From Anaerotruncus sp. G3(2012) (GTDB lineage: Bacteria; Bacillota; Clostridia; Oscillospirales; Ruminococcaceae): a stretch of DNA of 56,612 nucleotides. This document shows, in pieces, positions 15,456 through 33,310 of the stretch; the first letter of the stretch is position 1; every line of letters starts with the position of its first letter. The stretch is taken from positions 23,627-80,238 of the forward strand of contig NZ_KE159658.1 of assembly GCF_000403395.2 (NCBI RefSeq), given 5' to 3'. The notes under the pieces were generated by a model. The model was not told the origin of the DNA. It did not search any database and saw nothing but the letters and a program-made list of their open reading frames with translations. The position numbers and the translations under genes were made by a program.

Positions 15456-15618
15456 CAGGGGGCTTTTTCTCTTGCAAAAAGCCCCCTCTTGCCGCTTCGC
15501 GGCAATTCACCCGAAAAAAGCGCTTCTCAGGATAAAGTGTTCCGCGTCCTGCGGGACGCGGCGAGGGCTCTGCCCCTCGACCCCGCGATTTTTTGAAAAA
15601 AATCGAGTAAAACTTTTG
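15456..15618 (-). repeat. Repeat A, full copy (A3)
   Basis: Reads in the same direction as pnp, directly downstream of it. All five hairpins are intact: CGATTTTTT/AAAAAATCG; CGAGGG-GCAGAG-CCCTCG; CCGCGTCC-CGCA-GGACGCGG; TTGCCGC-GAA-GCGGCAA; and GGGGGCTTTTT-GCAAGAG-AAAAAGCCCCC. Confidence 0.9.
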
Positions 15619-15663
15619 GTTGAAACAAAGCAACGGCGCGGATTCGACCGCGCCGTTTGCTCT

Positions 15664-17775
15664 TTATCGATTGTGTTTTTTGGCTTCCATCGCGAGCAGC
15701 GCGTCGCGGCGGGAGAGGTTGATTCTGCCCTGCTGGTCGATCTCGGTGACCTTGACGATCACCTCGTCGCCGACCGCGACCACGTCCTCGACCTTCTCGA
15801 CCCGGCCCATATCCAGCTTGGAGATGTGGACAAGTCCTTCTTTGCCCGGTGCAAGCTCGACGAATGCGCCGAAGTTCATCAGACGGGTGACCTTGCCTTT
15901 ATAGATCGCGCCGACCTCGGGATCGTTGACGATCGTCTCGATGATCGAGATGGCGCGGCGGATACCGTCCGCGCTGGTGGAGGAGACAACCACTGTCCCA
16001 TCATCGTCAATGTCGATCTTGACGCCGCAGTCAGCCGAAATCTTCTGGATCACCTTGCCGCCGGACCCGATCACCTCACGGATTTTGTCCGGATGGATCC
16101 GGATCGACTGCACCTTGGGCGCATATTTTGAAAGCTCAGGCCGCACCTCGGGGATCGCCTTGAGCATGATCTCATTGAGGATATACATACGGGCGGCGTA
16201 GGTCTTTTCAAACGCCTCTTTAATCATATCATAGGTCAGGCCGTCGATCTTGAGGTCCATCTGGATCGCGGTGATGCCGTTTTTGGTGCCGCCGACCTTG
16301 AAGTCCATATCCCCGAAGAAATCCTCAAGTCCCTGGATATCGACCATGGTCATCCAGCGGTCGCCTTCGGTGATGAGGCCGCAGGAGATGCCCGCAACCG
16401 GCTCCTTGATCGGGACGCCCGCATCCATCAGCGCGAGGGTGGAGCCGCAGATCGAACCCTGCGAAGTGGAACCGTTGGAGGAGAGCACCTCCGAGACCAG
16501 GCGGATGGTGTAGGGGAACTCCTCGACCGACGGGATCACCGGCTCGAGCGCGCGCTCGGCCAGAGCGCCGTGGCCGATCTCACGGCGTCCGGGGCCTCTC
16601 GAGGGACGGGTTTCGCCGACCGAATAGGACGGGAAATTGTAGTGGTGGATATAGCGCTTCTGCTCCTGGTCGTCGATACCGTCCAGCTTCTGCGCCTCGC
16701 TGATCGTGCCGAGGGTCGCGATGGTCAGCACCTGGGTCTGGCCGCGGGTGAACATACCCGAGCCGTGGACGCGGGGCAGCAGCGAAACCTCTGCGGCGAG
16801 CGGACGGATCTCGTCCATCTTGCGGCCGTCCACCCGTTTCTGCTCGTCGAGCAGCCAGCGGCGGACAATCTTTTTCTGGAGCTTGTAGAGCACCTCGTCC
16901 AGCACCGCAGGATTTTCGGTTTTTTCGTCGAATGCCGCGTGTACCCGGTCGACAATCGGGGCAAGCCGCTCGTCACGGATTACCTTGTTGTCGGTATCGA
17001 GTGCGAATTTGACATCCTCGGCGCAGAACGCCTCCACCTCGTCGAACAGGTCGTGCGGGACCTCCATCGACTCAAAGGTAAATTTGGGCTTGCCGATCTC
17101 GGCCTGTACCTGCTTGATGAACCGGACCATCTTTTTGATCTCCTCATGGCCCTTGATGATCGCGTCGAGCATAACCTCATTAGAGACCTCGTTCGCGCCC
17201 GCCTCGATCATGCAGATGACATCCTCATTGGCGGCGACGGTGAGGTTGAGGTCGCTCATCCGGCGCTGTTCGGCGTCCGGGCAGACGATGATTTCCCCGT
17301 TCACCAGACCGATATTTGCGCCTGCGATCGGTCCGTTCCAGGGGATATCCGAGATCGAGAGGGCAAATGAGGTACCGATCATGCCGGCAATCTCGGGCAG
17401 ACAGTCGGGATCGACCGACATCACTGTCATAACGACCGAGCAGTCATTGCGCATGTCCTTGGGGAAAAGTGGGCGGATCGGGCGGTCAACCAGGCGGGAA
17501 GCCAGGATCGCCTTATCCGACGGGCGGGATTCCCGCTTGATGAACGAGCCGGGGATCTTCCCGACCGAGTAGAGCTTCTCTTCAAAATCGACCGAGAGGG
17601 GGAAGAAGTCGATCCCCTCGCGCGGCTTGGCGGATGCGGTGACGTTGACGAGCACGACCGTCTCGCCCCAGCGCACCAGCACCGAGCCGTTGGACAGGCC
17701 GCACATCTTGCCGGTCTCGAACGTCATGGGGCGTCCGCCGAACGTGGTTTCATAAATCTTGAAATTTTCAAACAT
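15664..17775 (-). CDS. pnp: Polyribonucleotide nucleotidyltransferase (PNPase)
   Basis: A 703-residue 3'-5' phosphorolytic exoribonuclease of mRNA decay. Domain order is complete: first RNase PH domain (residues ~10-140), helical linker, second RNase PH domain (~310-540, with TSQGSICGSTLALMDAGVP), KH domain (GSGGKVIQKISADCG) and S1 domain (GAIYKGKVTRLMNFGAFVEL). The ATG at 17775 follows GGAGG by 10 nt; an upstream extension has no ribosome site. It sits downstream of rpsO, with a hairpin between, which is the classic bacterial order. Repeat A follows the stop. Confidence 0.96.
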   Translation of the reverse strand: MFENFKIYETTFGGRPMTFETGKMCGLSNGSVLVRWGETVVLVNVTASAKPREGIDFFPLSVDFEEKLYSVGKIPGSFIKRESRPSDKAILASRLVDRPIRPLFPKDMRNDCSVVMTVMSVDPDCLPEIAGMIGTSFALSISDIPWNGPIAGANIGLVNGEIIVCPDAEQRRMSDLNLTVAANEDVICMIEAGANEVSNEVMLDAIIKGHEEIKKMVRFIKQVQAEIGKPKFTFESMEVPHDLFDEVEAFCAEDVKFALDTDNKVIRDERLAPIVDRVHAAFDEKTENPAVLDEVLYKLQKKIVRRWLLDEQKRVDGRKMDEIRPLAAEVSLLPRVHGSGMFTRGQTQVLTIATLGTISEAQKLDGIDDQEQKRYIHHYNFPSYSVGETRPSRGPGRREIGHGALAERALEPVIPSVEEFPYTIRLVSEVLSSNGSTSQGSICGSTLALMDAGVPIKEPVAGISCGLITEGDRWMTMVDIQGLEDFFGDMDFKVGGTKNGITAIQMDLKIDGLTYDMIKEAFEKTYAARMYILNEIMLKAIPEVRPELSKYAPKVQSIRIHPDKIREVIGSGGKVIQKISADCGVKIDIDDDGTVVVSSTSADGIRRAISIIETIVNDPEVGAIYKGKVTRLMNFGAFVELAPGKEGLVHISKLDMGRVEKVEDVVAVGDEVIVKVTEIDQQGRINLSRRDALLAMEAKKHNR

Positions 17776-17930
17776 GTTACAGTTTCCTCCGTTTCCATTC
17801 TTCAAAATTTTCACGGAGCCGGGAACTCTTTAGCAAGTATCTCAACATGCCGGAGCGGTTCCGGGATGCTCAGATAACTGCTAAAAGTGTCGCCGCGGCC
17901 CCGTCGTTTCTGGGCTGTGGGATACGCACA

Positions 17931-17961
17931 GGAAGGCAGACGGTCGATCCGCCTGCCTTCC
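17931..17961 (-). other. rpsO-pnp intergenic hairpin
   Basis: A 13-bp stem with one mismatch (GGAAGGCAGaCGG / CCGcCTGCCTTCC) lies just after the rpsO stop. No T-run follows, so it may be a weak terminator or an endonuclease processing site. In E. coli RNase III cuts a hairpin here and PNPase uses it for autoregulation; a similar use here is inference. Confidence 0.5.
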
Positions 17962-17972
17962 CTCCATTTCTG

Positions 17973-18239
17973 TTACTTACGCAGACCCAGCTTCGCAATC
18001 AGTGCGCGATAGCGGTTGATGTCCTTTTTCGCAAGATAGCTCAGCATATTCCGTCTTTTACCGACCATCTTCAGCAGACCGCGGTTGCTGTGGTGGTCCT
18101 TCGGGTGAAGTTTGCAGTGGGCGGTCAGGTCATTGATCCGTTTGGTCAGGATCGCGATCTGTACCTCCGGCGAGCCGGTGTCGTTTTCATGCTGTTTGTT
18201 TGCAAGAATAACTTCCTGCTTTTCTTCTTTGCGCATCAT
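17973..18239 (-). CDS. rpsO: 30S ribosomal protein S15
   Basis: An 88-residue protein, the standard S15 length, that binds 16S rRNA helices 20-22 early in 30S assembly. It contains the family blocks [43 protein letters not shown] and [12 protein letters not shown]. The ATG at 18239 follows GAGGTG by 9 nt. Transcribed toward pnp from a strong promoter with a leader of about 110 nt. Confidence 0.97.
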
Positions 18240-18578
18240 GGCTGTTGTCACCTCAGATTAAAATTTCGTCCGCTTTCTCAGGGGCAGGCGGGTGATTTCC
18301 CTGCCTGAAGCAGGCTTGCAGTCCTGTCTCCGGGAAATGGCCGTTTCGAAGGATCATTATACCATAGTTTAGGCAGCTTGTAAAGCATCCATACAGGCCT
18401 TTTTGTGGATTTGTGGGTAAAAACGAGGAAAACAGTGGATTCCAACGACCGGATTCGTATTTTAAGGACGCTCTCCAGGCCTGCTTTTCCCTTTAGAGGG
18501 AATTTTTTCGTCTGAAACATCTTTTGGCATCCTTCTGGAGACAACGAAAGAACCGCGGACAAGACATCCGATGGCGGC
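18240..18578 (-). other. rpsO leader and upstream intergenic region
   Basis: The first ~110 nt form the rpsO mRNA leader, containing a GCCTG-aag-CAGGC hairpin (18303-18315) that could take part in S15 autoregulation. From 18385 to 18578, before the end of the SGNH gene, I see no gene, only a small CCCT-ttag-AGGG hairpin followed by six T's on the plus strand (18491-18510). Confidence 0.4.
18356..18384 (-). promoter_or_regulatory. Sigma-A promoter of rpsO-pnp
   Basis: On the minus strand TTTACA (18384-18379), exactly 17 bp, TATAAT (18361-18356). Start predicted near 18349. Confidence 0.8.
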
Positions 18579-19361
18579 TCAGCCCCGCTCCCAGACTCCG
18601 ATCCGTCCCGGCAGACGGTCACCTGGCCGGTCGGGGGCCGGTTTCCGGCTGGGTTCGGACTCGGTGATGAAGGGGAGGACCTTCTCCTGCCAGACCGCAT
18701 ACCCTTCCTTGCTCAGATGCAGCCCGTCGAGCTGGTAGTCATACGCGAGCTGCCAGGAGGACTGGTCGAGCATGGGGAAAAACAGGTCGATGTATTCCAA
18801 CCCTCGCTCCTCCGCCATCTGCCGGATCGAGCGGTTGACCTGTTCGAGCAGCCGGTTATCCGGCAGGGTGCGTATATCGGTTCGGACCGGCAGCAGGCTC
18901 TGGACATAGATGCGGGTTTCGGGCATCGCCTGCTGAAGCCGGTCGAGCAGCCCTGCATAATCTGCACAAACCTCCCTGGGGGCGCGCTCACTGAGGTCAT
19001 TGATCCCGACCAGCAGAAAGAGTTTCCGAGGCCGCAGGGCAACGACCTGGTCCAGCCGGGCTTCCAGACCGGCGATCCGATCGCCGTCGATCCCGCGGTT
19101 GGCGATTTTCAGCGTCTGGGAAAGGGCCTGCCAATCCCCCCGGTAGGTCAGGCTGTCCCCGAAAAAGACAAGATCCGCGGTTTCCCCGCGCGGCTCATAT
19201 TCCTTCAGCATTTGGGCATATCCCTGTGCATAGCTTTCCCCCCGTGTTTGTGCCAGCTGATCCAGATAGAACGCCTTGTCCGGGTCCGCATGGCGCACCC
19301 CGTAGGCGGTCAGGGACAGCGCTGCGCAAACAAGCAGGGCGGCTGCCGCTCCCCATCGCAA
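18579..19361 (-). CDS. SGNH/GDSL-family esterase-like protein
   Basis: About 260 residues with an N-terminal membrane anchor or signal (ALLVCAALSLTAYG) and an SGNH hydrolase domain: block I FFGDSLTYRGDW with the nucleophile Ser, block II Gly in NRGIDGDRIAGL, block III GINDL and block V DGLHLS with the Asp-His pair. The family deacylates lipids or glycans; the substrate is unknown, but an extracytoplasmic cell-wall or glycan ester is plausible. The start is probably the TTG at 19361, 6 nt after GGAGGG; the upstream GTG at 19379 precedes that site. Confidence 0.85.
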   Translation of the reverse strand: MRWGAAAALLVCAALSLTAYGVRHADPDKAFYLDQLAQTRGESYAQGYAQMLKEYEPRGETADLVFFGDSLTYRGDWQALSQTLKIANRGIDGDRIAGLEARLDQVVALRPRKLFLLVGINDLSERAPREVCADYAGLLDRLQQAMPETRIYVQSLLPVRTDIRTLPDNRLLEQVNRSIRQMAEERGLEYIDLFFPMLDQSSWQLAYDYQLDGLHLSKEGYAVWQEKVLPFITESEPSRKPAPDRPGDRLPGRIGVWERG

Positions 19362-19410
19362 AAAAATCCCTCCATTCACATCTTTCGACCGGATTCGACT
19401 TTGAACCCTG

Positions 19411-19433
19411 AAAAAAATCCCCTCCCAGAGGGG
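19411..19433 (-). terminator. Terminator of the pyridoxal kinase gene
   Basis: On the minus strand a CCCCT/AGGGG stem is followed by ATTTTTTT, just after the stop codon. Confidence 0.6.
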
Positions 19434-19445
19434 CCGGATAGGTGC

Positions 19446-20309
19446 TTACAAAAGCTGATAGTTGGTGAGAACCTCGCGATGGGTCAGCCATCCGAGGCAT
19501 TTTTCCAGCATCACCCCATAGCGGGTGTCGGTTCCATAGCTGAAAGTGGTCTTGATCGCCAGTTCGACAAAGCAGGTTGCCCGGTCCATTGCCATGGGGA
19601 AGCTGTCCCCGGTGAGCATCGCGCCGGTGAGCACGCTCGCGAAGATGTCCCCTGTGCCGGGATAGGAGGTCGGCACATAGTCGTAGTTTACACACCAGTA
19701 GGCGTTCTGACGGCGGTCATAGCCCACGTTGGCGCACTCGCCGGAAGCCAGCTCCGCCCCGGTAATCACCACATACCGCGGCCCAAGCTCGGAGAGCCGC
19801 GCCATCATGCTTTTAAGCTGCTGGCGGGTGAGCGGCTCGTGACGGTAGGTCTCCCCCAAGAGCAGGTACGCCTCGGTCAGATTCGGGGTGATGACCGCTG
19901 CCGACTGTACCAGAAGGCGGATCTGCTCTACCAGTTCAGGGGTATAGGTGCGGTAGAGCTTGCCATGATCCCCCATCACCGGGTCCACCACCGCAAGCGC
20001 GTCCGGATAGGCGGAGATGAAGGATTTCATGTCGCCCGCCTGGGAGGGCCTGGAGAGGAATCCTGAATAGATGCCCTCCAGATCGACCGACAGCCGCTGG
20101 TAGTGCTCGACGGTGGGATAGATATAGTCGGAGAGGTCGCGGTGCACCAGCTCGCCAAGCCCGCCGGTGTGGGTGGACATGACCGCAGTAGGGATCGGGC
20201 AGACCTGCACGCCCATCGCGGATAGGGTGGGGATCACCACTGCGAGCGAGCTGCGCCCAAACCCGGCCAGCGCGTGGATTGCCGCGACTCTCGGCGGACG
20301 GTTGTTCAT
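19446..20309 (-). CDS. pdxY: Pyridoxal/pyridoxamine kinase
   Basis: A 287-residue ribokinase-like enzyme that phosphorylates B6 vitamers for PLP salvage. Motifs: the N-terminal substrate block VAAIHALAGFGRSSL, PTAVMSTHTGG, DPVMGDHGKLY, ITPNLTEAYLLLG and the anion-hole block SYPGTGDIFASVLTGAML. The sequence is of the Clostridial PdxK/PdxY type. The start is ATG 20309 with GGTG 7 nt upstream; the frame is open a further 19 codons without a ribosome site. It is transcribed alone, divergent from the small protein at 20480. Confidence 0.88.
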   Translation of the reverse strand: MNNRPPRVAAIHALAGFGRSSLAVVIPTLSAMGVQVCPIPTAVMSTHTGGLGELVHRDLSDYIYPTVEHYQRLSVDLEGIYSGFLSRPSQAGDMKSFISAYPDALAVVDPVMGDHGKLYRTYTPELVEQIRLLVQSAAVITPNLTEAYLLLGETYRHEPLTRQQLKSMMARLSELGPRYVVITGAELASGECANVGYDRRQNAYWCVNYDYVPTSYPGTGDIFASVLTGAMLTGDSFPMAMDRATCFVELAIKTTFSYGTDTRYGVMLEKCLGWLTHREVLTNYQLL

Positions 20310-20383
20310 AAGCGGACACCTGCACTTTCCTCGGTTTTGAAAAGATTCTGGAAATTTGTTTTTCATCGGTACAGCCTGTAGAT

Positions 20384-20405
20384 TTGCCCTGCGAACCGGG
20401 CAAAC
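20384..20405. promoter_or_regulatory. Inverted repeat in a divergent promoter region
   Basis: TTTGCCC-TGCGAACC-GGGCAAA lies between the divergent pyridoxal kinase and small-protein genes. It could be an operator or the start of a leader hairpin; no clear -10 boxes accompany it. Confidence 0.3.
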
Positions 20406-20479
20406 TAGTTCAGGCGGATTCCGCCCGGGCCGACCGGAAAGGGAAGCTCTGAAACATTGAAATAGGGAGGTGGATCAGG

Positions 20480-20662
20480 ATGAACAAAGCAGCTACCACA
20501 GCGATGACCGGTGTTGCGGTTGCGATGGCAGCGGGGACTGCGGCATATATGCTCTCCGGACATGGCAAAAACAGCACCGGCAAAAAGCTCAAACGCAACG
20601 CAACCAAGGCGGTCAAGACGCTTGGGAACGTGCTGGACAGCGTGGAATATCTCATGCATTGA
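20480..20662 (+). CDS. Small conserved protein (60 residues)
   Basis: A 60-residue basic protein with an Ala/Met-rich hydrophobic N-terminal half (TAMTGVAVAMAAGTAAYML) and a Lys-rich C-terminal half that looks amphipathic. It has an excellent ribosome site (GGGAGG, 9 nt before the ATG) and a dedicated terminator, so it is clearly expressed. It resembles the many short, uncharacterised YtxH-like or envelope-associated proteins of Clostridia; no function can be given. Confidence 0.75.
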   Translation: MNKAATTAMTGVAVAMAAGTAAYMLSGHGKNSTGKKLKRNATKAVKTLGNVLDSVEYLMH

Positions 20663-20666
20663 GCGG

Positions 20667-20704
20667 GAAGGGAGGCTTTCGGCTGCGAAAGGCTCCCTTC
20701 TTTA
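20667..20704 (+). terminator. Terminator of the small-protein gene
   Basis: A 15-bp stem with one mismatch (GAAGGGAGgCTTTCG) and GCTG loop follows 4 nt after the stop and ends in TTCTTTA. Confidence 0.75.
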
Positions 20705-20758
20705 TATGTTCGGCGCAGCGGGCGCCGTCCCTTTACAAAAGGAACGGCGGGCAAGCGA

Positions 20759-22171
20759 TTAAATCCCGATCTGGCCTTCGGGCAGAACCCGGCGGCTGGA
20801 AGGCTCTCTGCGCATTGCGAGCGAGAGCAGGAACGAGACCGGCCCGAGCCTGCCCATATACATCAGCAGGATGAGCAGCCCGCGTGAAACCGGGCTTGCG
20901 GCGCCGGTCACCCCCACCGAGATTCCGACCGTCGCAAAAGCGGAAACACTCTCGTAAAACGCGTCAATCCCGCTGATCTCGGCAGCCCCGTCGGTGAGCA
21001 TCACACAGGCCGCGCTCATCGCGACCGCAGACAGCCCCATCAGTACGACCGCCAGCGATTTGTAGACCGTCCCGTGGTCCAGCCGCCGCCGGAAGACGAC
21101 GACCTCCTCATCCCCGCGGGCAACCGAGCAGACGGTCGCAGCCAGGACAACCGCAGTCGTACATTTGATGCCTCCCCCGGTCGAGCTGGGTGCAGCGCCG
21201 ATAAACATGAACAGTGCGGAGAGGACCTTGGTGCTTCCCCGCATCAGGTCGCAGGGGAACGAGTTGAACCCTGCGGTGCGGCAGGTCACCGAATAGAACC
21301 AGGCGGCTCCCAGGCGCTGCGCGTTGTTTGGCAGTGCGCCGAGAGTGGCCGGGTTGGTCCACTCACAGGCCAGCGTCATGAGCATACCGGACAGGAGCAG
21401 GATGCCGGTTGCCGCCAGCACCACCCGGGTGTGGAGCAGCAGGGTGCGGGTGCGGCGGTACTGGAACAGGTCGTAATAGACCACAAAACCAAGCCCGCCG
21501 GCAATAATCAGCGCGCTGACCGTCCCCATGATCAACGGGTTTCCGTTATAGTTGGTGAGCGAAGAGAACAGACCCTGACCGCCGAACAGGTCAAAGCCCG
21601 CATTGCAGAATGCCGAAACCGCGGTAAAGATCGAAAAAAAGATGCCTTGCGCACCGTACTGCGGCACCAGCGCGATCATCAGCAGGAGTGCGCCGGCCCC
21701 CTCCGCAGCGAGCGCGCCGCCCACCACCAGCCGGAGCAGCGGACGTATGGTGAATTCCTGCGTACCGATAGATTCGCGCGCGAGGTCGAGGTTTCGGCGT
21801 TCCAGCCGCCGGCCGACCGCCATGGAAAAAAAGCTGGTCATCGTCACCAGCCCGAGGCCGCCGGTCTGGATCAGCAGCAGAATCACACACTGTCCGAATC
21901 CGGTCCAATGGGTGTAAGTATCATAGATTACCAGCCCGGTGACACAGGTTGCCGAGGTGGCGGTGAACAGGCAGTCGAGCAGCGGGGTCCAGCTGCCATC
22001 CCGGCTGGAGGCCGGCAGCATCAGCAGGAAAGTCCCGATGAGGATCACCATTGCAAAGCTGACCGCGATGATCCGGGCCGGAAACCGGAAGAGGAACCGG
22101 AACCGCGCCTCCTTCCGTCCGCGCCCAAACGGCTCCGGGCGGGAGATGCGGACCGGGAACGACCCGGTCAC
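20759..22171 (-). CDS. TrkH/KtrB-family potassium transporter subunit
   Basis: A 470-residue membrane protein of the TrkH/KtrB superfamily, with four pore-loop repeats. The first filter region FTATSATCVTGL is plain, followed by QTGGLGLVTMTSFFSM, CNAGFDLFGG, the third loop region TCRTAGFNSFPC and ATVGISVGVTG. It forms the pore of a K+ uptake system that normally needs a cytoplasmic TrkA/KtrA ring; none is encoded nearby. The GTG start overlaps the Nudix stop by 4 nt (GTGA), giving translational coupling, though the AAGGGAG site is unusually close (2 nt). Confidence 0.9.
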   Translation of the reverse strand: MTGSFPVRISRPEPFGRGRKEARFRFLFRFPARIIAVSFAMVILIGTFLLMLPASSRDGSWTPLLDCLFTATSATCVTGLVIYDTYTHWTGFGQCVILLLIQTGGLGLVTMTSFFSMAVGRRLERRNLDLARESIGTQEFTIRPLLRLVVGGALAAEGAGALLLMIALVPQYGAQGIFFSIFTAVSAFCNAGFDLFGGQGLFSSLTNYNGNPLIMGTVSALIIAGGLGFVVYYDLFQYRRTRTLLLHTRVVLAATGILLLSGMLMTLACEWTNPATLGALPNNAQRLGAAWFYSVTCRTAGFNSFPCDLMRGSTKVLSALFMFIGAAPSSTGGGIKCTTAVVLAATVCSVARGDEEVVVFRRRLDHGTVYKSLAVVLMGLSAVAMSAACVMLTDGAAEISGIDAFYESVSAFATVGISVGVTGAASPVSRGLLILLMYMGRLGPVSFLLSLAMRREPSSRRVLPEGQIGI

Positions 22172-22590: not shown

Positions 22591-22815
22591 TTTAATCGTC
22601 CTTCCTGCCGCGGCGCCGGACCGCGCCGCATGCCTCCTGTGTGCAGAACACGAAATTATGCTGTTCAGGGCCTGTACGGAACCCTTCCGGAGCGGTAAAA
22701 AAACCGGCTGACCATTGTAGATGCGGGTCCGAAATACAGGGCTTTTAATAATATACCACGTTTGGGGCCGGTTTAAAAGTAGTATTTTCTGTTTTTTGCA
22801 GAGCGCAGCCAGCGC

Positions 22816-26225: not shown

Positions 26226-26682
26226 ACGTTTTCTCCTTTCAGATTGTGGAACCGGAGGAAAGGCCCCCTGTCCGCCGGATGACCGCACCGCCCATGAGTG
26301 AGAAACCTGTTTCATAATCAGGGGATGCTGGATGGGCGAGGGATTTTGCTGCCCTGCGAGGCGAAAAAACGCAGACAATACTTTGTGTATTGCAAGGTTT
26401 TTCAACGCGGCAGGTCGGCAAAAGGCCCGCCCAGATGGTATCAAATGGTTGTGAATACGGGTTCTGATATAGCGTATGCCGGTGGCGGCAGCCTGATTTC
26501 AATTTATCATAGCATTTTCAGGCATCAAGTACAAGAGAGGGGCTGCTCCCAAAAGATAGAACAAGTTCGAAGAAACCCGCTCCGCCACAGGACATGGCGA
26601 AGCGGGTTTCCCCTATTTTGAGGAGTGGAGATCATAATGGAAGGGCTGGAAAAGGCTCAGACGATCCTTTTCCAGTCTGCTT
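26226..26682. other. Intergenic region with repeat B and two hairpins
   Basis: Beyond repeat B this 457-bp gap holds two hairpins downstream of the permease operon: GAAACCCGCTCCGCC with its one-mismatch complement (26572-26610) and CTGGAAAAGG/CCTTTTCCAG (26646-26675). Either could end the minus-strand operon, although neither has a long T-run. No gene was seen. Confidence 0.5.
26301..26465 (+). repeat. Repeat B, copy 1 (165 bp)
   Basis: About 90% identical by eye to the copies at 41422 and 55675, and exactly the same length. The inverted ends are AGAAACCTGTTTCATAATC (somewhat decayed here) and GGTTGTGAATACGGGTTCT. A CAATAC-TTTGT-GTATTG hairpin is internal. Confidence 0.9.
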
Positions 26683-26907
26683 TCAAGAGTCCTGATTGGA
26701 TTCGATTTTGGTCGGCGTACTTAGAACCGCGATGCAGGCCACTGTCCCGGCAACACCTAGATACAGGAGCAGCGGGGTCATCGAATGAAGATAGTACATC
26801 ACCGCGCCGATCGGTATGAATGCGTTGAAGAGGAACAGGAGAACCAGCATATAAACCCGTCCGATGAATTTCCCATGTTTGGAATCCAGAAATTTCTGCA
26901 TGTTCAT
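26683..26907 (-). CDS. Small two-helix membrane protein
   Basis: A 74-residue protein with two membrane segments (VYMLVLLFLFNAFIPIGAVMYY and LLYLGVAGTVACIAVL). Its ATG overlaps the permease stop (TAATG), so it is translationally coupled and probably an accessory subunit or stabiliser of that permease. No recognised family. Confidence 0.7.
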   Translation of the reverse strand: MNMQKFLDSKHGKFIGRVYMLVLLFLFNAFIPIGAVMYYLHSMTPLLLYLGVAGTVACIAVLSTPTKIESNQDS

Positions 26908-28274
26908 TATTCCGGCCACACTCCTAACTTACTCATGATAAAGGTGATAAAGACGATATTGAGGATCGAAATGCAGATCAAGATGCCCGCATTGAAAAAC
27001 CGGCTCTGGATAACCCGTTTGCCGAGGTAGCGGGTATCGTTTCCGAGCAGATACCAGGAGTTCCCGCTGATCCAGTTGAACAGGCTCTGCATGGCGGCAA
27101 CGGTGACAACGATCATAACCGGCTTGCCGAAGAATGCGCCCAGGAAGCCGATCTGTGGGGCGAGGACAACCACCGGATGGTACCACGCCTTGGGATCGCG
27201 CTTGACATTGGTGGACTGATAGAACGAGGTCGCACAGGTGACGCTGAGGCCGATCATGGAGGAAACGACCAGCGCAATGATCCCGATGTAGAATCCGACC
27301 TGGATCCACACGCTCGGGATAACGCCTACCAGCGCGTCACACAGCTCACCCGACGAGGTGGGGATGCCGGGTTTTCCAGAGAATGCCTCGGCGAATGCGA
27401 TCGAGACAAACGAGAGGATCAGGGTGACCGGCAGCAGGCCGCCGAAGAAGGCGTCGAACCGTCCGAGCGTCTCGTGTTCCTCCGAGTATCCTCTCGAGAT
27501 CATCCCGTTGTTGAACAGGACCCAGTCCATAACACCGATGGTAGCAGTCATCGAGCCGATCAGCATGATGATGCCATCCATTCCCGAAGGGAGCTTCGGG
27601 ATCAGCAGGCCCTTCACCATAGCGGGGAGGTTGATACCGGTCACGCAGATAACCGCGCCGAACACCAGCAGCATAATCCCGATCATGACCTTCATGGCGT
27701 TCTCAACAAATTTGACCGCCTTGGGATTCTCGCCGCTTCCGTACATCAGCGAGAGCGGGACCGAGATTGCAACCAGAACGATCCAGCTTATGCTCTTGGG
27801 GATTGGCAGCCCCACCACCTGGAACAGGGAGGTAAGCGCGTCCGATCCAAGCGCATATTGTCCAAAGGTGTATACGATAGAGGCGATAAAGCAGGCGACC
27901 AGTCCGGTGGCAAAACTGCCGAAGAATTTCCCATGGAATTTGTCCTGCGCCTCAATGACATTCATCTCCGAGCCGGTGACAAACCGGGTGGCAAGCGCCA
28001 GCATAAAGATGCCGAATGCAAATGAGTAGAGCGGGATCCAGAGCATGTCGTATCCATAGGCGGCGCCCAGTGTGACCGAACTGGCGAATGAGCCGGCCCC
28101 CAGTGTAAACGCGGCGTTCATAAAGCCAGGGCCGGACAGTTTTACATAGCCCATGAAGCGTTTGGTGGACGGCTGTTTTTTCAGTTCCTTCAGGTAGGCT
28201 TTTTCCTTGATCGCCTGTTCGGTGTAGCGCGGGTTGATGACCTCAACCGGCTTGTTTTGCGATTCATGGCTCAT
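26907..28274 (-). CDS. NRAMP-fold permease lacking metal-binding motifs
   Basis: A 455-residue protein with about eleven membrane segments. The first conserved segment (GPGFMNAAFTLGAGSFASSV, then YGYDMLW) aligns well with NRAMP Mn/Fe transporters, but the metal-ligand motif DPGN is GAGS here, and the MPHN region of helix 6 appears as VMDW. Without those ligands, divalent metal transport of the usual kind is unlikely; a magnesium-like or organic substrate is possible. It follows the ATC-hydrolase-like gene by 19 nt behind a sigma-54 promoter, which suggests uptake of that enzyme's substrate. AGGAGG lies 9 nt before the ATG. Confidence 0.8.
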   Translation of the reverse strand: MSHESQNKPVEVINPRYTEQAIKEKAYLKELKKQPSTKRFMGYVKLSGPGFMNAAFTLGAGSFASSVTLGAAYGYDMLWIPLYSFAFGIFMLALATRFVTGSEMNVIEAQDKFHGKFFGSFATGLVACFIASIVYTFGQYALGSDALTSLFQVVGLPIPKSISWIVLVAISVPLSLMYGSGENPKAVKFVENAMKVMIGIMLLVFGAVICVTGINLPAMVKGLLIPKLPSGMDGIIMLIGSMTATIGVMDWVLFNNGMISRGYSEEHETLGRFDAFFGGLLPVTLILSFVSIAFAEAFSGKPGIPTSSGELCDALVGVIPSVWIQVGFYIGIIALVVSSMIGLSVTCATSFYQSTNVKRDPKAWYHPVVVLAPQIGFLGAFFGKPVMIVVTVAAMQSLFNWISGNSWYLLGNDTRYLGKRVIQSRFFNAGILICISILNIVFITFIMSKLGVWPE

Positions 28275-28293
28275 AATAAACGACCTCCTCTTC

Positions 28294-28767
28294 CTATAGC
28301 TTTGTAACGATCATCTCACACGGGGCATCCGGGCCATCGGTGAACAATCTGGGCCGTTCGAACCGGATATTCCCAAAAATCGCCTGATTCAGTGCGAGGT
28401 CGATTTCCTCGCAGTAGAGCTTCCCAATCTGCTCCAGCCCCAACGCGCGAAAGGCGGTGGAAAACGGGCAGACGCGGTTGACCTCCCGCAGGCAGTTGCC
28501 TTCCACCTGGCTTTCGCAGTCCCACGCCTGGTTGGGTGGGTAATCGGAATATGCTTCTGCATTTTCAAAGGTCAGCTCTTTGCCATCCGCGAGGATGTTT
28601 GCCCTGATCGCCTCGCCGCGCATCAGGCCATATCTTCGGACAGCCTTGCGCACAATTTGGGAGCCCTCTTCCTCGCCGCAATTTCTGAGAACCTCATCCG
28701 CAATCAGCGCAAAGAGCTTTGCTGCCATTTCGGTGGCTTTTCCAACCGGATCGTTCGGGTTAAACAT
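28294..28767 (-). CDS. ATC-hydrolase-like protein (L-2-amino-thiazoline-4-carboxylate hydrolase family)
   Basis: A 157-residue soluble protein resembling the ATC_hydrolase family: YGLMRGEAIRANILADG, the motif VCPFSTAFRALGL (the family's Cys-Pro segment), YCEEIDLALNQAI and the C-terminal LFTDGPDAPCEMIV. The named family member opens the thiazoline ring of ATC on the way to cysteine, but most homologues are uncharacterised and probably act on other small carboxylates. The start at ATG 28767 has AGGAGGGG 5 nt upstream. First gene of a sigma-54-type operon with an NRAMP-fold permease. Confidence 0.75.
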   Translation of the reverse strand: MFNPNDPVGKATEMAAKLFALIADEVLRNCGEEEGSQIVRKAVRRYGLMRGEAIRANILADGKELTFENAEAYSDYPPNQAWDCESQVEGNCLREVNRVCPFSTAFRALGLEQIGKLYCEEIDLALNQAIFGNIRFERPRLFTDGPDAPCEMIVTKL

Positions 28768-28807
28768 GGTTGCCCCTCCTTCTTTGTTCAGATTTGCCCT
28801 TTTAAAC

Positions 28808-28824
28808 AGCAAAAAATGTGCCAA
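28808..28824 (-). promoter_or_regulatory. Sigma-54 promoter of the ATC-hydrolase-like operon
   Basis: On the minus strand TTGGCAC-ATTTT-TTGCT, an exact TGGCAC-N5-TTGCW match with correct GG-GC spacing. The predicted start near 28797 gives a 30-nt leader. Confidence 0.85.
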
Positions 28825-28970
28825 TTTTTTAAGATGGCAGAATCATACAGAATGGAAAGAAAAATATGGATATTACTTCCAATTCAAAGAAAAATCAATA
28901 AAAATTTGTAAAACAATCATAAAATCTTTTTCCTTTCCAAACGACTTGCGCTGCATTTGCAGGATGCCTG

Positions 28971-28986
28971 TCATGAAATTTCATGA
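28971..28986. promoter_or_regulatory. Candidate activator-binding palindrome
   Basis: A perfect 16-bp palindrome TCATGAAATTTCATGA centred about 155 bp upstream of the -24 element, the usual distance for an enhancer-binding protein site. Its sequence differs from the TTGNCA dyads at 36842. Confidence 0.45.
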
Positions 28987-29112
28987 TAGAGCAAAATCGG
29001 ATAAAAAAGAAAAAGATTCCTTGACGGGGCAGTTTGGCAAAACAGGCAGGTTGACAGTCAACAGGCGGCGAAGACCCAGGACGGCAGTGCATCATTGGGA
29101 GGGGATGGATGC

Positions 29113-29143
29113 AAAAAAGTGCAGCTTCCGCAGAAGCTGCACT
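29113..29143 (-). terminator. Rho-independent terminator of the radical SAM gene
   Basis: On the minus strand an 11-bp stem AGTGCAGCTTC with its complement is followed by TTTTTT. The stem begins in the stop codon. Confidence 0.85.
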
Positions 29144-30750
29144 CAAGCAGATTGTGATGGTTCGATTTTTGTGCAGGACGCATTTCCAAACGGGTCACGG
29201 AGGGTATAGTCAAACCGCACAAGCGTTTCCTGTTGGGGATGCTGCGGGTCAAGCGGGTCGAAGGGGAACAGCTCGACCCATTCCTGCGGACCGGGCTTGC
29301 CGGGCAGGAGCAGCCTGCGCCGGGGTTCATTCCCGGCTGCGCAGTGTTCGGGCAGGCGGCGCGGGCGCTCGTGCAGGCAGAGGTCAAGCCGCATCAGCCA
29401 GGAAAAGACCTCCGGGTCGCAGCCCTGCTCGACCGCGAACGTGAACAACAGGTCGTAGCAGGCATATTTCCCCACGTTCTGCGCGGGTATCCGCTCGCCA
29501 AGCGCAAGAAACATCCGGAATGGCGAGGGACAGTCCCGCAGCAGGCAGGCAAGCTGGTTTTGAAACCGTCCGCTGTTGTAGTAAAGCTCGGTCATCTCCT
29601 CCACCCGTTTGATCCGGCAGATCTCATGAAACGAAAGCTGTGGGGTTTGCAGGATTTCATACGGCGGCGTTTCGCTGTAGACCAGCCCATACTGTTCCCG
29701 CTGTTCGTAAAGCCGGGAGCCGCGCAGCAGCTTGAGAAACCCAAGCTGGAGCTGATGGGGGCGCATCGCAAATACCTCGTCGTAGCTCTGCGCGAACCGT
29801 TCGAATCCTTCGAGCGGGAGTCCGGCGATCAGGTCGAGATGCTGGTGGATATTCCCGAACGCACCCACTGTGCAGACGTTATCCCGGAGCGTTTGCAGGT
29901 CGGTCGGGCGCGCAGCGGCGGCAAGCGCAGCGGCGCAGGTCGACTGCACCCCGATTTCAAATTGAAACAGGCCCGGACGCACCGTTTGCAGCAGCCGGAG
30001 CTGGTCCGGCGTGGTCAGGTCGCCGCCCAGCTCCATCTGGAAGGAGGTATATCCGTTGTCATGCGCGGCGAGATACTGCCAGATAGCAGACGCGCGGTCC
30101 GGCCGGAGATTGAATGTCCGGTCAACAAATTTTACCTGCATCACCCGCGCATCCAGCAGTTTTTGCAGATCGTCAAAGACGAGCGGCAGCGAGCGGAACC
30201 GCACCGTCCGGTCGGCGGAGGAGAGGCAGTAGGAGCAGCCGTACGGACAGCCGCGCGATGATTCATAATAGAGTACCCGGTTGGGGAGGGATGTAAGGTC
30301 GCTGTATGGGAACGGGAGCGCGTCCAGGTCGGCAAACCGGCTGGCGCGGAAAATCCCGCGCGGATGCGGTTCTGACAATACCTGCGCGAGGATCGGCTCC
30401 CCCTCGCCGCAGAGGATGCCGTCCGCCCATCCGTAACGGGCGAGCCGGTCTTCCGGGTCGAAGCTGACCTCCGGTCCGCCCAGCAGGATTGGGATATCCG
30501 GGAAGAGAGCGCGAAATTCCGAACCAAGCTGCTCGACCTGTCGGATGTTCCAGATATAACAGGAAAAGAGCAGCCGGCCGGGCGCGCGGGAGACGATGTC
30601 CGCGAGGATCTCCCGCACCGGCTGGTTGATGGTATATTCCACGAATGCGGCAGGAATCCCCGCCGCATCAAGCGCCAGTTTGAGGGATCGCACCGCGAGG
30701 TTGGTGTGGCTGAATCTGGCGTTGACCGCTACCAGCAGCGTTTTTTTCAT
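29143..30750 (-). CDS. B12-binding radical SAM protein with DUF4080 domain
   Basis: A 535-residue protein: N-terminal cobalamin-binding-like domain (LLVAVNARFSHTNLAVRSL, LFSCYIWNI, LLGGPEVSF), radical SAM core with the CxxxCxxC cluster motif in SSRGCPYGCSYCLSS (about residues 180-194), then the C-terminal DUF4080-type domain. The reaction is unknown; related proteins carry out methylations or ring rearrangements. The ATG at 30750 follows AAAGGAGG. It is downstream of tex, with a repeat A copy in between. Confidence 0.88.
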   Translation of the reverse strand: MKKTLLVAVNARFSHTNLAVRSLKLALDAAGIPAAFVEYTINQPVREILADIVSRAPGRLLFSCYIWNIRQVEQLGSEFRALFPDIPILLGGPEVSFDPEDRLARYGWADGILCGEGEPILAQVLSEPHPRGIFRASRFADLDALPFPYSDLTSLPNRVLYYESSRGCPYGCSYCLSSADRTVRFRSLPLVFDDLQKLLDARVMQVKFVDRTFNLRPDRASAIWQYLAAHDNGYTSFQMELGGDLTTPDQLRLLQTVRPGLFQFEIGVQSTCAAALAAAARPTDLQTLRDNVCTVGAFGNIHQHLDLIAGLPLEGFERFAQSYDEVFAMRPHQLQLGFLKLLRGSRLYEQREQYGLVYSETPPYEILQTPQLSFHEICRIKRVEEMTELYYNSGRFQNQLACLLRDCPSPFRMFLALGERIPAQNVGKYACYDLLFTFAVEQGCDPEVFSWLMRLDLCLHERPRRLPEHCAAGNEPRRRLLLPGKPGPQEWVELFPFDPLDPQHPQQETLVRFDYTLRDPFGNASCTKIEPSQSA

Positions 30751-30798
30751 CGCTGTCTGCCTCCTTTCCGGAACCCGCGGTACCACAGTTTTTCAAAC

Positions 30799-30931
30799 AA
30801 AGGGGCTTTTTCACTTGCCAAAAGCCCCCTCTTGCCGCTTCACAGGATAAAGTATTTCGCTCATTGCGATGAGCGACCAGAGGCGCTGCCTTTGGAAACC
30901 GCAATTTTTCGAGAAAAATCGAGTAAAGCTT
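30799..30931 (-). repeat. Repeat A, short copy (A4)
   Basis: Reads in the same direction as tex, 35 bp after its stop. Hairpin 1 CGATTTTT/GAAAAATTG, hairpin 2 CCAAAGGC/GCCTCTGG, hairpin 3 TCGCTCAT-CGCA-ATGAGCGA and hairpin 5 are present; hairpin 4 and its flanks are deleted cleanly. Confidence 0.85.
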
Positions 30932-30965
30932 CAGATGTGAAACGTCTGCCAACGGGTGCGGATTC

Positions 30966-33119
30966 TTATTTTTTCGGCTTTTTCATGGTCAGCGAGATAC
31001 GTTTTTTCGGCAGATCGACACCCAGCACCCAGACGGTGACAATATCCCCCACCTTGAGCACCTCGCTCGGATGCCGGATATACCGGTTGGTGATCTGCGA
31101 GATGTGCACCAGCCCATCCTGATGCACCCCGATGTCGACAAATACGCCGAAGTCGATCACGTTCCGCACCGTTCCCTGAAGCTCCATCCCCTCTTTGAGG
31201 TCCTTCATATCCAGGATATCGCTGCGCAGCATGGGCGGGGGAAGTTCATCCCGCAGGTCACGGCCGGGCTTGAGCAGTTCGGCGGCAATATCCCGCAAGG
31301 TCGGCGCGCCGACCCCGCATTCCGCCGCAACCTGTTCCTCCCCGGCAGCCTTGATCTGTGCGGGCAGCTCAGAAAGGCGGTTGCCGGCTGCATCTTCAAG
31401 GGTATATCCGAACCGGTCAAGCAGCGCTTTTGCGCCTGCATAGGATTCGGGATGCACACCGGTGCTGTCCAGCAGGTTGTTCGCGTGGGGAATCCGGAGG
31501 AATCCCGCGCACTGTTCAAACGCTTTCGGCCCCAGCTTGGGCACCTTTTTAAGCTGGGTGCGGCTGGTGAATGCGCCGTTTTCCTCCCGGTAGGTCACGA
31601 TGTTTTTGGCAACTGTGCCCGAAAGCCCTGCCACATATCCCAAAAGCGATGCCGACGCGGTATTCAGGTCAACCCCAACCCGGTTTACGCAGTCCTCAAC
31701 CACACCGGTCAGCGTCTCATCCAACCGCTTCTGGGGCATGTCATGCTGGTACTGTCCCACACCGACCGATTTCGGGTCGATCTTGACCAGTTCAGCGAGA
31801 GGGTCCTGAAGCCGCCGCGCGATCGAAACCGCGCTGCGCAGCGAGACATCGAAGTCGGGAAACTCCTGAGCCCCCAGTTTGGACGCCGAATAGACCGATG
31901 CGCCCGCCTCGTTGACCATCATGTAGGAAAGCCCGCAGTCCATCTCACGGATCAGCTCTGCGGCGAACAGCTCGCTCTCCTTGGAGGCGGTGCCGTTCCC
32001 GATCGAGAGGACGTCCACATGGTGTTTGCGGATGAGCGCGCCGAGCTTTTGTTTGGCTTCGGCAACCTTGTTCTGGGGCGGGGTCGGGTAGACGACAGCG
32101 GTATCGAGCACCTTCCCGGTTGGGTCAACCACCGCAATCTTGCAGCCGGTGCGGTAGGCCGGGTCGATCGCCAGCACCGTTTTCCCCTTGACCGGCGGCT
32201 GCATCAGCAGTGCTTTCAGGTTTACCCCAAAATTTTTAATCGCCTGTTCGTTGGCGGTCTCGGTCAGATCCGAGCGCACCTCCCGTTCGAGAGAGGGGTG
32301 GATCAGACGTTTATAGGCATCGGAAACCGCCTCCAACACCAGCGGGGTGGTGATGCTCCCCTTCTTCACAAAGAGTCCGGAAAGCAGGCCCACGGCATAA
32401 CCGCTGTCCACCTCGACGGAAGCTTTGAGAAAACCTTCCTTTTCACCGCGGTTGACAGCCAGTATCCGGTGGCTGGGCATCCGGGAGACCGGCTCCGCAT
32501 AATCGGCGTACATCGCATAGACGCCCGCGTCCTCCCCGACAGAGACGGTTTTCAGCACCGCGTTTTTCTGGTAGTACTGACGCAGCAGCAGACGTCCCTG
32601 CGCGCTGTCCGAAAACTGCTCGGCGAGGATGTCCGACGCACCTGCCAGCGCATCCTCCGGCGTAGGGACGCCCTTTTCCGGATCAACAAATGGCTCCGCC
32701 AGAGCCTGCACGCTCCCGGAGGTCCTGTCCTGCGCAAGCAGAAGCTCGGCGAGCGGCTCCAGCCCCCGTTCCTTCGCGACCGTTGCGCGGGTGCGCCGCT
32801 TCTGCTTATAAGGACGGTAGATGTCCTCAAGGCGGGCCAATGTTTCGGCTGCCGCAATATCGGCTTCCAGTTCGGGGGTCAGCTTGCCCTGCTCGGCGAT
32901 CGCTCCGGAAACCTCCTCCCGGCGTTTTTGCAGGCCGCGCAGATAGTCAAGCCGCTCGGAAAGCTCCCGCAGAACCTGATCGTCACAGGAACCGGTCTGC
33001 TCCTTCCGGTAGCGCGCGATAAACGGGATGGTATTGCCCTCATCGATCAGGGCGATGATATTTTCCACCAGTTTTTGTGCGATGTGAAATTCGCTTGAGA
33101 GAATCGCAGAAAAGTCCAT
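30966..33119 (-). CDS. tex: Tex-family RNA-binding protein
   Basis: A 717-residue Tex/YdcI protein: N-terminal helical region (NTIPFIARYRKEQTGS), YqgF/RuvC-like domain with DPAYRTGCKIAVVD, helix-hairpin-helix region (LNTASASLLGYVAGL) and C-terminal S1 domain (GMELQGTVRNVIDFGVFVDIGV). It associates with the transcription or ribosome machinery; its exact role is not settled. Length and domain order are full. The ATG follows GGAG; a repeat A copy lies on each side of the gene. Confidence 0.95.
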   Translation of the reverse strand: MDFSAILSSEFHIAQKLVENIIALIDEGNTIPFIARYRKEQTGSCDDQVLRELSERLDYLRGLQKRREEVSGAIAEQGKLTPELEADIAAAETLARLEDIYRPYKQKRRTRATVAKERGLEPLAELLLAQDRTSGSVQALAEPFVDPEKGVPTPEDALAGASDILAEQFSDSAQGRLLLRQYYQKNAVLKTVSVGEDAGVYAMYADYAEPVSRMPSHRILAVNRGEKEGFLKASVEVDSGYAVGLLSGLFVKKGSITTPLVLEAVSDAYKRLIHPSLEREVRSDLTETANEQAIKNFGVNLKALLMQPPVKGKTVLAIDPAYRTGCKIAVVDPTGKVLDTAVVYPTPPQNKVAEAKQKLGALIRKHHVDVLSIGNGTASKESELFAAELIREMDCGLSYMMVNEAGASVYSASKLGAQEFPDFDVSLRSAVSIARRLQDPLAELVKIDPKSVGVGQYQHDMPQKRLDETLTGVVEDCVNRVGVDLNTASASLLGYVAGLSGTVAKNIVTYREENGAFTSRTQLKKVPKLGPKAFEQCAGFLRIPHANNLLDSTGVHPESYAGAKALLDRFGYTLEDAAGNRLSELPAQIKAAGEEQVAAECGVGAPTLRDIAAELLKPGRDLRDELPPPMLRSDILDMKDLKEGMELQGTVRNVIDFGVFVDIGVHQDGLVHISQITNRYIRHPSEVLKVGDIVTVWVLGVDLPKKRISLTMKKPKK

Positions 33120-33140
33120 ACGTCAACTCCAAATCTTCTT

Positions 33141-33310
33141 AAAAAGTTTCGCCAGCCTTTTCAAAGGCTGCGGTTTCCAAAGGCAGAGCCTTTGGTCGCT
33201 CATCGCAATGAGCGAAATCCTTTATCCTGTGAAGCGCGTTTTTCGGGTGAATTGGCTCTGACTTGCGGTCAGAGCCAAGAGGGGGCTTTTTACAAGAGAA
33301 AAAGCCCCCT
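33141..33310 (+). repeat. Repeat A, full copy (A5)
   Basis: All five hairpins are perfect: CAGCCTTT/AAAGGCTG; CCAAAGG-CAGAG-CCTTTGG; TCGCTCAT-CGCA-ATGAGCGA; TTGGCTCTGAC/GTCAGAGCCAA; and GGGGGCTTTTT-ACAAGAG-AAAAAGCCCCC. It reads away from tex and against the small gene pair. Confidence 0.9.

Follow-up and report, generated by a model that had tools for sequence, protein, structure and literature searches.

The window analysed here, a stretch of 56,612 nt of contig NZ_KE159658.1 from Anaerotruncus sp. G3(2012), carries a hairpin-rich repeat at several places, and this raises the question whether the hairpins serve the transcripts beside them or belong to an element that moves. The genome of origin is referred to as G000 and a close relative as G005; G006, G007, G009 and G010 belong to the same genus.

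Copies of the repeat in the window

Four full copies were recovered by cmsearch (E 1.9e-31 to 8.3e-52, with a model built from copies including three of the four window copies) where the initial annotation had placed them, at 1118, 15456, 30799 and 33141. Copy A1 (1118-1339, plus strand; E 2.6e-37) lies directly 3' of dusB, the reading frame of which ends at 1113, and its stems 1 to 5 occupy positions 1129-1146, 1153-1171, 1172-1252, 1290-1308 and 1310-1339, stem 3 including about 61 additional nucleotides. A remnant right-hand terminal inverted repeat (AGATTTCAAATAGGCTCTAA; 1346-1365, plus strand, G000:C2:24972-24991), with one mismatch, lies beside it. Copy A2 (15457-15615, minus strand; E 8.3e-52) lies in sense 3' of pnp and includes stem 5 (15457-15487), stem 4 (15489-15505), a linker helix (15506-15536), stem 3 (15542-15561), stem 2 (15562-15579) and stem 1 (15586-15605). 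Copy A4 (30800-30931, minus strand; E 1.9e-31) lies in sense downstream of an S1-domain gene, with stem 5 at 30802-30829, stem 3 at 30857-30876 and stem 1 at 30902-30921; comparison with intact copies shows that stem 4 is missing along with some of the linker, the loss lying between two direct repeats of GAAGCG. Copy A5 (33142-33310, plus strand; E 4.7e-47) is placed upstream of the same S1-domain gene, in antisense, and has stem 1 at 33153-33170, stem 2 at 33177-33195, stem 3 at 33196-33215, the linker helix at 33221-33251, stem 4 at 33252-33278 and stem 5 at 33280-33310. The product names of dusB and pnp are those of NCBIfam, while the name tex for the S1-domain gene comes from the initial annotation only; among the 25 NCBIfam matches listed, this gene has S1-domain and ComEA-like matches only.

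The stems, loops and linkers described earlier were all present in the window copies, stem 4 being absent from A4, and the placement of three sense copies 3' of dusB, pnp and tex, with A5 antisense and upstream of tex, was likewise confirmed. The constancy noted for stem 5 does not extend beyond the window, other arms being found in the own genome and in relatives. The four named fragments fared unevenly. The one at position 1 was recovered (1-40, minus strand; covariance model R1 34.6 bits, E 2e-8; model R2 35.4 bits) as the 5' portion of either a copy or a tandem module, truncated at the window edge. The one given at 48477 is a doubtful tail fragment with a stem-5-like hairpin only (48483-48639, minus strand), found weakly by R1 (14.9 bits, E 0.0089) and without an R2 match at E ≤ 10. 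The one given at 45675 is a degenerate tail (45688-45755), found by BLAST only, at 85% identity across 68 nt of L031, a copy from a relative, and without a match to R1 or R2. The fragment at 9325 was recovered by neither of the two models.

Anatomy of the unit and covariation

The unit is about 160 nt long and runs in the order AAGTTTT, hairpin 1, CGGNTT, hairpin 2, hairpin 3, linker, hairpin 4 and hairpin 5, in some copies with CGTC preceding hairpin 1. The tip of hairpin 1 is TTTTTCAAAA-like and that of hairpin 2 GGCRGMGCC-like, hairpin 3 has the form YCGC-N4-CGCA-N4'-GCGR, and the loop of hairpin 5 is often GCAAGAG. The stems are nearly perfect in pairing. Across genera a consistent T run 3' of hairpin 5 was not found, single copies having one, and with this inconsistency hairpin 5 was ruled out as a terminator.

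A tree-based test of the R-scape type detected significant covariation (E ≤ 0.05) in 34 of the 53 base pairs, compared with 4 of 12,667 other column pairs. This test included 42 of the 43 rows (one module-type row was left out) and 60 null alignments, and its FastTree tree was built on an element that partly recombines. Changes on both sides were present in 41 of the 53 pairs in one test and in 49 of the 53 in another; in the latter the covariation score was 0.623, against 0.180 in shuffled and at most 0.157 in slid alignments. Double-changed cells numbered 575, compared with 154.6 in shuffles. The alignments labelled A2-A5 were fitted by covariance models, which were used because a loose anchor on stem 3 had matched unrelated DNA. 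Across genera the loops and linkers are kept while the stems vary in step, and selection on the hairpin structure is well supported. The helix between stems 3 and 4 had one significant pair out of ten in the tree test and is thus weakly supported, so its many G.U pairs were not used as evidence.

Copy number and distribution

Of the 2156 loose candidates in the own genome, 150 were scored; these gave at least 142 matches at E ≤ 1, and 67 of them reached at least 100 bits; dozens of the copies are near-identical. Among the nearest genomes, 20 of 61 were positive at E ≤ 0.01, the own genome counted and four of the 20 by one weak match only. The order-wide sample included at least 51 positive genomes out of 295, in 37 of 149 genera (E ≤ 1e-4), and the class-wide sample at least 13 out of 391 (E ≤ 1e-8), ten of the 13 belonging to the own order. 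Since the number of candidates scored per genome was limited (48 in the nearest genomes, 10 in the order sample and 7 in the class sample), the copy numbers are lower bounds and the absences not firm. Copy number and covariation tests together exclude a chance origin.

At the gathering cut-off Rfam 15 had no match either in the window or among 16 loci taken from other genomes; at a relaxed cut-off six further loci gave five weak matches, none at the gathering score. Phage and plasmid collections gave no match, and viral contigs a single exact 17-mer match. The literature search found no description of the repeat family. The repeat belongs to a family of non-coding elements present in numerous copies in this bacterium and found in quite a few related genera.

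Exchange of hairpins between copies

Within the own genome, 92 pairs of copies diverge by no more than 5% outside hairpin 3. Of these, 60 differ by 0-2 letters in hairpin 3 and 32 by six or more (eight of the 32 by a long insertion), and none by 3-5. Also between orthologous copies of G000 and G005 the stems are swapped as blocks: at the A2 site the copy of G005 carries an insertion within hairpin 1, and its hairpins 2 and 3 are different ones. A lone compensated pair was seen in one case (L189/L232). The stem changes in G000 and G005 thus look mostly like whole hairpins swapped as blocks and not like stepwise compensation. The earlier claim that stems change by compensation holds across genera, where the 34 covarying pairs were found, but within these two genomes block changes seem to prevail.

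Possible preference for one strand

In helices with exactly one non-Watson-Crick pair, the ratio of G.U to A.C was 42:22 in stems 2-5 (p 0.017) and, across genera, 18:3 in stems 1-5 (p 0.0015); the unfiltered cross-genus count was 34:12. Stem 3 alone gave 1:1 across genera, and when distinct pair types were counted in stems 1-5 of the 21-row cross-genus alignment, there was no excess (13:10). The strand evidence is uneven, and a surplus of G.U relative to A.C on one strand is moderately well supported. The lean of the pairing faults towards G.U hints at one folded strand, and tolerance of G.U fits RNA and single-stranded DNA alike, so it does not tell the two apart.

These counts also bear on the idea that the paired changes arise from mutation alone, template switching perfecting the palindromes without any selection. 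The nearly perfect stems and the 13:10 count agree with it, as does the loop of hairpin 5, which is inverted in 4 of the 82 well-formed own-genome copies and thereby shows exchange at the level of palindromes in DNA. A strand-symmetric process is, however, not expected to produce the G.U excess of the 42:22 and 18:3 counts, and the loops and linkers are conserved across genera, which makes this explanation quite improbable.

Gene context

The copies are placed in intergenic DNA. The context counts were made with a simple hexamer gene caller, copies of identical sequence being dropped and low-scoring and module matches kept to E 1e-6. Between co-directional genes, 58 copies lie in sense and 55 in antisense, and divergent intervals hold 2 of 148 copies, although they account for 6 of the window's 47 gene pairs (p 0.003). 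Non-standard pairs make up 3.83% in sense copies and 1.81% in antisense copies.

The initial annotation had suggested a role in 3'-end formation or mRNA stability, in which case the array would be an RNA structure useful to the host, protecting or ending the upstream transcript. The avoidance of divergent intervals agrees with this, three of the four copies in the window lie in sense behind a gene, and the structure itself is real, as the covarying pairs show. However, the near equality of sense and antisense copies, the latter paired no worse than the former, speaks against the suggested role, as do the inconsistent T run after hairpin 5 and the absence of A1 from the close relative G005. We consider such a role unlikely.

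The copies could also be a family of small RNA genes with promoters of their own, acting in trans. The lean to one strand and the independence of orientation would fit this, but upstream of the unit no conserved sequence was found across genera beyond an A at -1 and a general richness in A, and the dozens of near-identical copies also speak against it; the chance that this is the explanation is very slight.

Probable mobility and terminal repeats

Between close genomes the element is present or absent at single sites. It is lacking in G005 at the A1 site and in L266 at the site of L204, but these empty sites are not exactly clean and thus prove no target duplication.

Some copies of G000 and G005 carry an IS5-like terminal inverted repeat, GAGCCTGTTTARAATCT, with a TWA flank. 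In G000 it is present at the left end of 12, at the right end of 24 and at both ends of 4 of the 120 copies; the corresponding numbers in G005 are 12, 22 and 8 of 49. Shuffled flanks gave 0-1, and in G005 as a whole the pattern had 121 matches against 2 control matches. On these copies the two TWA flanks match in some cases and differ in others. In other genomes none of the 37 copies tested (5 of G007, 9 of G015 and 23 others) had terminal repeats. Explaining the copies as parts of a known transposon, which the initial annotation had named as grounds against its reading, may thus hold for some copies of G000 and G005 and not for the 37 from other genomes.

Miniature elements (MITEs) of the IS5 type are marked by terminal inverted repeats at both ends, a target-site duplication and an autonomous element with the same ends. 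Were the repeat an ordinary MITE, double-stranded DNA would be moved by an IS5-type transposase through its terminal inverted repeats, and the hairpins would be cargo. The subset with GAGCCTGTTTARAATCT ends and TWA flanks resembles this, and the own genome has DDE_Tnp_1 transposases: at 6 of the 19 loci examined, out of 30 matches, a similar end, GGGCTTGTTTGAAAAATA, is present. None of these 19 loci held an autonomous element with the same ends as the repeat, most copies even of G000 and G005 are without terminal repeats, and G005, in which they are most frequent, has only one DDE_Tnp_1 match, interrupted by a stop. Since an ordinary MITE would moreover leave the conservation of internal loops across genera unexplained, it is an improbable account of the family.

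Enzyme partners were sought among PF01797 and PF00078, and PF01609 was examined in two genomes. In terms of co-occurrence in genomes, not of gene neighbourhood, Y1 transposase (PF01797) was present in 9 of 20 genomes with the element and in 18 of 41 without it (p 1.0). For reverse transcriptase (PF00078) the corresponding counts were 10 of 20 with and 14 of 41 without (p 0.27). With no association, both were rejected as partners. REP and BIME sequences are described as dispersed extragenic palindromes of 20-40 bp, with single-strand recognition by RAYT reported (PMC3733652). A GTAG or CGTC tag at one end is a further mark of REP sequences. Movement as single-stranded DNA by such a Y1 tyrosine transposase acting in trans would agree with the lean to one strand, the many copies and the intergenic placement. 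Compared with the REP sequences so described (PMC3733652), however, the present unit is about 160 nt long and has five hairpins instead of one short palindrome, and in these genomes it showed no association with Y1 transposase; no PF01797 was shown in G015, G009 and G059 despite 10, 30 and 27 element matches. A REP-like element moved in this way is therefore very improbable.

Nature of the element and significance

The family has many copies in intergenic DNA, differs in presence between close genomes and has covarying stems with constant loops. The element is probably mobile, and the reading we prefer, to which we give about an even chance, is that of a family of non-autonomous mobile elements of the order, spreading by way of a folded single strand. 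The strand would be of one polarity, either RNA or DNA that becomes single-stranded when replicated or transposed. A protein provided in trans would read the constant loops and linkers, not the letters of the stems. Copies would shuffle whole hairpins, probably by gene conversion. The G000 and G005 subset may travel as a passenger of an IS5-type transposase, a possibility that arises from its terminal inverted repeats with the TWA flank, and any influence on adjacent genes would be a side effect of the hairpins.

Among known systems, the BOX elements of Streptococcus are described as modular repeats rich in hairpins, which occur in many copies between genes and are thought to have spread as small mobile units (PMC3049150). 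BOX elements are marked by boxA, boxB and boxC sequences. Compared by description, the present repeat is likewise many-copy, modular, hairpin-rich and intergenic, but it is set apart by its anatomy, five hairpins in invariant order whose loops are constant and whose stems covary, and by its occurrence in many genera. Structured motifs with covariation, dozens of copies per genome and an orientation independent of genes have been presented as mobile or repeat sequence candidates and judged selfish, their RNA or DNA form being left open (PMC11109978). The present repeat resembles these candidates, as there described, in its covarying motif, many copies per genome and inconsistent orientation (PMC11109978). 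A further mark of that category is association with transposase, integrase, nuclease or helicase genes; the families covered here were PF01797, PF00078 and, in two genomes, PF01609. From one of the candidates, MRSC-65-2, which is reported to form one long stem carrying a UYCCGG repeat, the present repeat differs in being an array of five hairpins (PMC11109978). That the family stands for an as yet unnamed, order-wide class of mobile structured element, its folded single strand read by constant loops independently of the stem letters, and perhaps a SINE-like retroposon of bacteria whose mobilising enzyme has so far not been connected with elements of this kind, is a conceivable but rather doubtful further step.

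With this repeat an order of Clostridia gains a large family of structured repeats for which we found neither an Rfam match nor a description. Several contigs break off within a copy or next to one, and copies border a gene inversion; the repeats therefore matter for the reading of these genomes. The rule of constant loops and variable stems predicts a protein that recognises the loops of a single folded strand.

Copies in the window and structural selection

The initial annotation had placed full copies of repeat A, a dispersed unit of about 160 nt with five hairpins, at 1118, 15456, 30799 and 33141, and its observation was confirmed as a whole. Sequence and covariance-model matches place A1 at 1118–1339 (+), A2 at 15457–15615 (−), A4 at 30800–30931 (−) and A5 at 33142–33310 (+). 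The fragments named with them fared unevenly: the one at 1–40, cut by the window edge, is real, 48477 is doubtful, 45675 is backed by BLAST alone, and 9325 was recovered by neither covariance model. Compared with intact copies, the missing stem 4 of A4 is flanked by two GAAGCG direct repeats, so that a simple repeat deletion explains the loss. The window also includes a second, 170-nt repeat (26296–26465 and 41417–41586; mutual identity 91%), the latter copy of which has many matches in the close relative G005 (82–92%), and two 49-nt units in tandem at 3688–3785, 86% alike and with a palindromic core.

Across genera, most copies start with AAGTTTT or a near variant. In hairpin 1 the stem letters vary while the TTTTTCAAAA-like tip is mostly kept, in hairpin 2 GGCRGMGCC is mostly kept, and hairpin 3 is in most copies YCGC-N4-CGCA-N4'-GCGR, its CGCA loop sitting on 20 fully paired versions of the arms in two model-fitted alignments. 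Hairpins 4 and 5 vary most, and the GCAAGAG loop of hairpin 5 is found again on unrelated stems. Several copies (L111, L112, L115, L120, L121, L127 and other loci) have next to them a longer module, about 245 nt in length and in some cases in tandem, with an element-like start up to CCAAAGGCAG followed by other hairpins (GGAAGTTTGGG...).

Selection on structure was confirmed by copies from many genera. Among 22 copies of several genera, both-side changes were present in 41 of the 53 pairs (187 such cells vs 44.5 shuffled), and among 43 copies in 49 of the 53 (575 vs 154.6), the latter with a covariation score of 0.623 vs 0.180 shuffled and at most 0.157 with the partners slid. The covariation check proposed earlier was run as an R-scape-like test, in which each column's own substitutions are put randomly on a tree as null; 34 of the 53 pairs had E ≤ 0.05, as did four of the 12,667 column pairs that are not part of the structure. 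The significant pairs included 4/8 in stem 1, 4/8 in stem 2, 6/8 in stem 3, 7/7 in stem 4, 12/12 in stem 5 and 1/10 in the linker helix.

Folding strand

A double-stranded palindrome, whether kept as such or perfected by mutation, is expected to show equal G.U and A.C faults. The count was limited to helices in which a single pair was non-Watson-Crick, and took each letter combination once per genome group. The G.U:A.C ratios were 4:4, 12:5, 18:6 and 8:7 in stems 2 to 5, summing to 42:22 (p 0.017; this and the other p values of this paragraph are guides, as the groups share descent and the alignments derive from a model of the same strand). The cross-genus counts were 18:3 in stems 1–5 (p 0.0015) and 34:12 unfiltered (p 0.0016). 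As counter-evidence, distinct pair types in stems 1–5 of a 21-row alignment gave 13:10, and 23:11 with linker helices added (p 0.058). Folding of the plus strand, the strand of the element as modelled, as single-stranded RNA or DNA has moderate support.

Copy number and distribution

As a nucleotide query, A5 gave 154 candidate places in its own genome (G000), 40 of them scored. A first covariance model, built from 18 own-genome copies, gave at least 142 matches at E ≤ 1 and at least 67 at ≥100 bits among the 150 scored of 2156 loose candidates. Among scored candidates the distribution over contigs looks uneven: copies are dense on contigs such as C2, C21, C23 and C24, while C18 (32 bits) and the part of C1 past ~503 kb (59 bits) each have a single match.

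At E ≤ 0.01 the first model detected the element in at least 20 of the 61 nearest genomes, four of the 20 depending on one weak match: at least 8/11 in the genus (own genome counted), 10/26 elsewhere in the family and 2/24 elsewhere in the order. A second model, of copies drawn from several genera, found it at E ≤ 1e-4 in at least 51 of 295 order-sampled genomes and 37 of 149 genera, with ten candidates scored per genome. In a class-wide sample at least 13 of 391 genomes were positive at E ≤ 1e-8, three of these beyond the own order. Locus L421, in a genome from a different order within the class (G480), holds copies above 100 bits, for which transfer or mis-binning is possible. Rfam included no family matching the element. 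The exact linker CTTTATCCTGTGAAGCG is present in one viral contig (L420, 1861–1877).

Comparison with the close relative

Between dusB and trmB, the place of A1, G005 has about 18 unrelated nucleotides where the own genome has about 250, and at the L204 place a truncated copy is absent in G005, with a full copy close by. At many other places the copy is common to both genomes.

Among 1953 pairs of the 63 best distinct own-genome copies, 92 were at most 5% different when hairpin 3 was left out. Hairpin 3 itself differed by 0–2 letters in 60 of these, by 6–8 in 24, by a long insertion in eight and by 3–5 letters in none. In the orthologous pair L120 and L230, whose flanks are nearly identical, hairpins 2 and 3 account for most of the difference, as an exchanged block, and the A2 copy of G005 has an insertion within hairpin 1, other hairpins 2 and 3 and the same 4 and 5, though single cases of this kind may be assembly errors at repeats, several loci containing N runs. 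The hairpin 5 loop is inverted in 4 of 82 well-formed own-genome copies. A single compensated pair separates L189 from L232 in hairpin 5 (GGGCGC/GCGCCC to GGGTGC/GCACCC). The compensatory stem changes noted earlier are thus, within these two genomes, mostly cassette exchange, probably through gene conversion, and the underlying pairing rule is old and common to many genera.

The L120/L230 flanks are 97–99% identical, other shared places about 83–95%, perhaps reflecting recent transfer. The S1-domain gene called tex (30966–33119) is inverted relative to G005 (L031, 407–2557) and bordered on both sides by element copies in each genome, in the window at 30800–30931 and 33142–33310. As the bordering copies are co-oriented in G005, simple recombination between inverted copies is an incomplete explanation. 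The nearest named records of this gene are from Anaerotruncus MAGs (Clostridia, Oscillospiraceae; protein identity 96% and 82%), making the own genome Anaerotruncus-like.

Terminal repeats and candidate movers

Some copies in the two genomes are bounded by GAGCCTGTTTARAATCT-like inverted repeats adjoining TWA. These were detected at the left end in 12/120 own-genome and 12/49 G005 copies, at the right end in 24/120 and 22/49, and at both ends in 4/120 and 8/49, vs 0–1 in shuffled flanks. The pattern itself occurs 121 times in G005 (control 2) and 13 times in the own genome (control 1). DDE_Tnp_1 transposases had 30 matches in the own genome, where a similar but non-identical end was present in 6 of 19 fetched loci, and one in G005, with a stop within. 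That repeat A is part of a known transposon is partly borne out by these IS5-like ends on a subset, but none were found on 37 other copies (five of G007, nine of G015, 23 others). The ends are read as a local event in which the element captured an IS5-type MITE or was itself captured by one.

Y1 transposase genes were equally common in genomes with and without the element (9/20 vs 18/41). Reverse transcriptase genes were present in 10/20 vs 14/41 (p 0.27), and in element-rich G005 none was found at E ≤ 1e-10.

Gene context

A simple gene caller allowed placement of 122 own-genome and 49 G005 copies, seven and three of them inside called genes. Of the 148 copies with both neighbours, 113 are in co-directional, 33 in convergent and two in divergent intervals, compared with 34, 7 and 6 among 47 window gene pairs. 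Copies avoid divergent intervals (p 0.003), and the convergent excess against this small baseline was not significant (p 0.31). A role in mRNA 3'-end formation or stability, suggested initially, is not supported as the selected function: sense and antisense copies number 58 and 55 in co-directional intervals, and if sense host transcription kept the structure, better pairing would be expected in sense copies, but non-standard pairs run opposite (56/1464 cells in sense, 23/1270 in antisense). Cruder gene calls for 67 copies from other genomes put 15 in sense and 10 in antisense, with 21 in convergent and nine in divergent intervals and the other 12 at an edge.

Relation to known repeats

No description of repeat A was found in the openly accessible articles covered. 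BOX elements (PMC3049150) are likewise modular, intergenic hairpin repeats, and MRSC-65-2 (PMC11109978), a covarying many-copy repeat judged selfish, is nearest in kind but has a single stem, while REP elements (PMC3733652) are short palindromes linked to RAYTs. None was shown to be the same family. On the best reading, repeat A is a mobile and non-autonomous family of repeats, spread over an order of Clostridia, that would fold as one strand.
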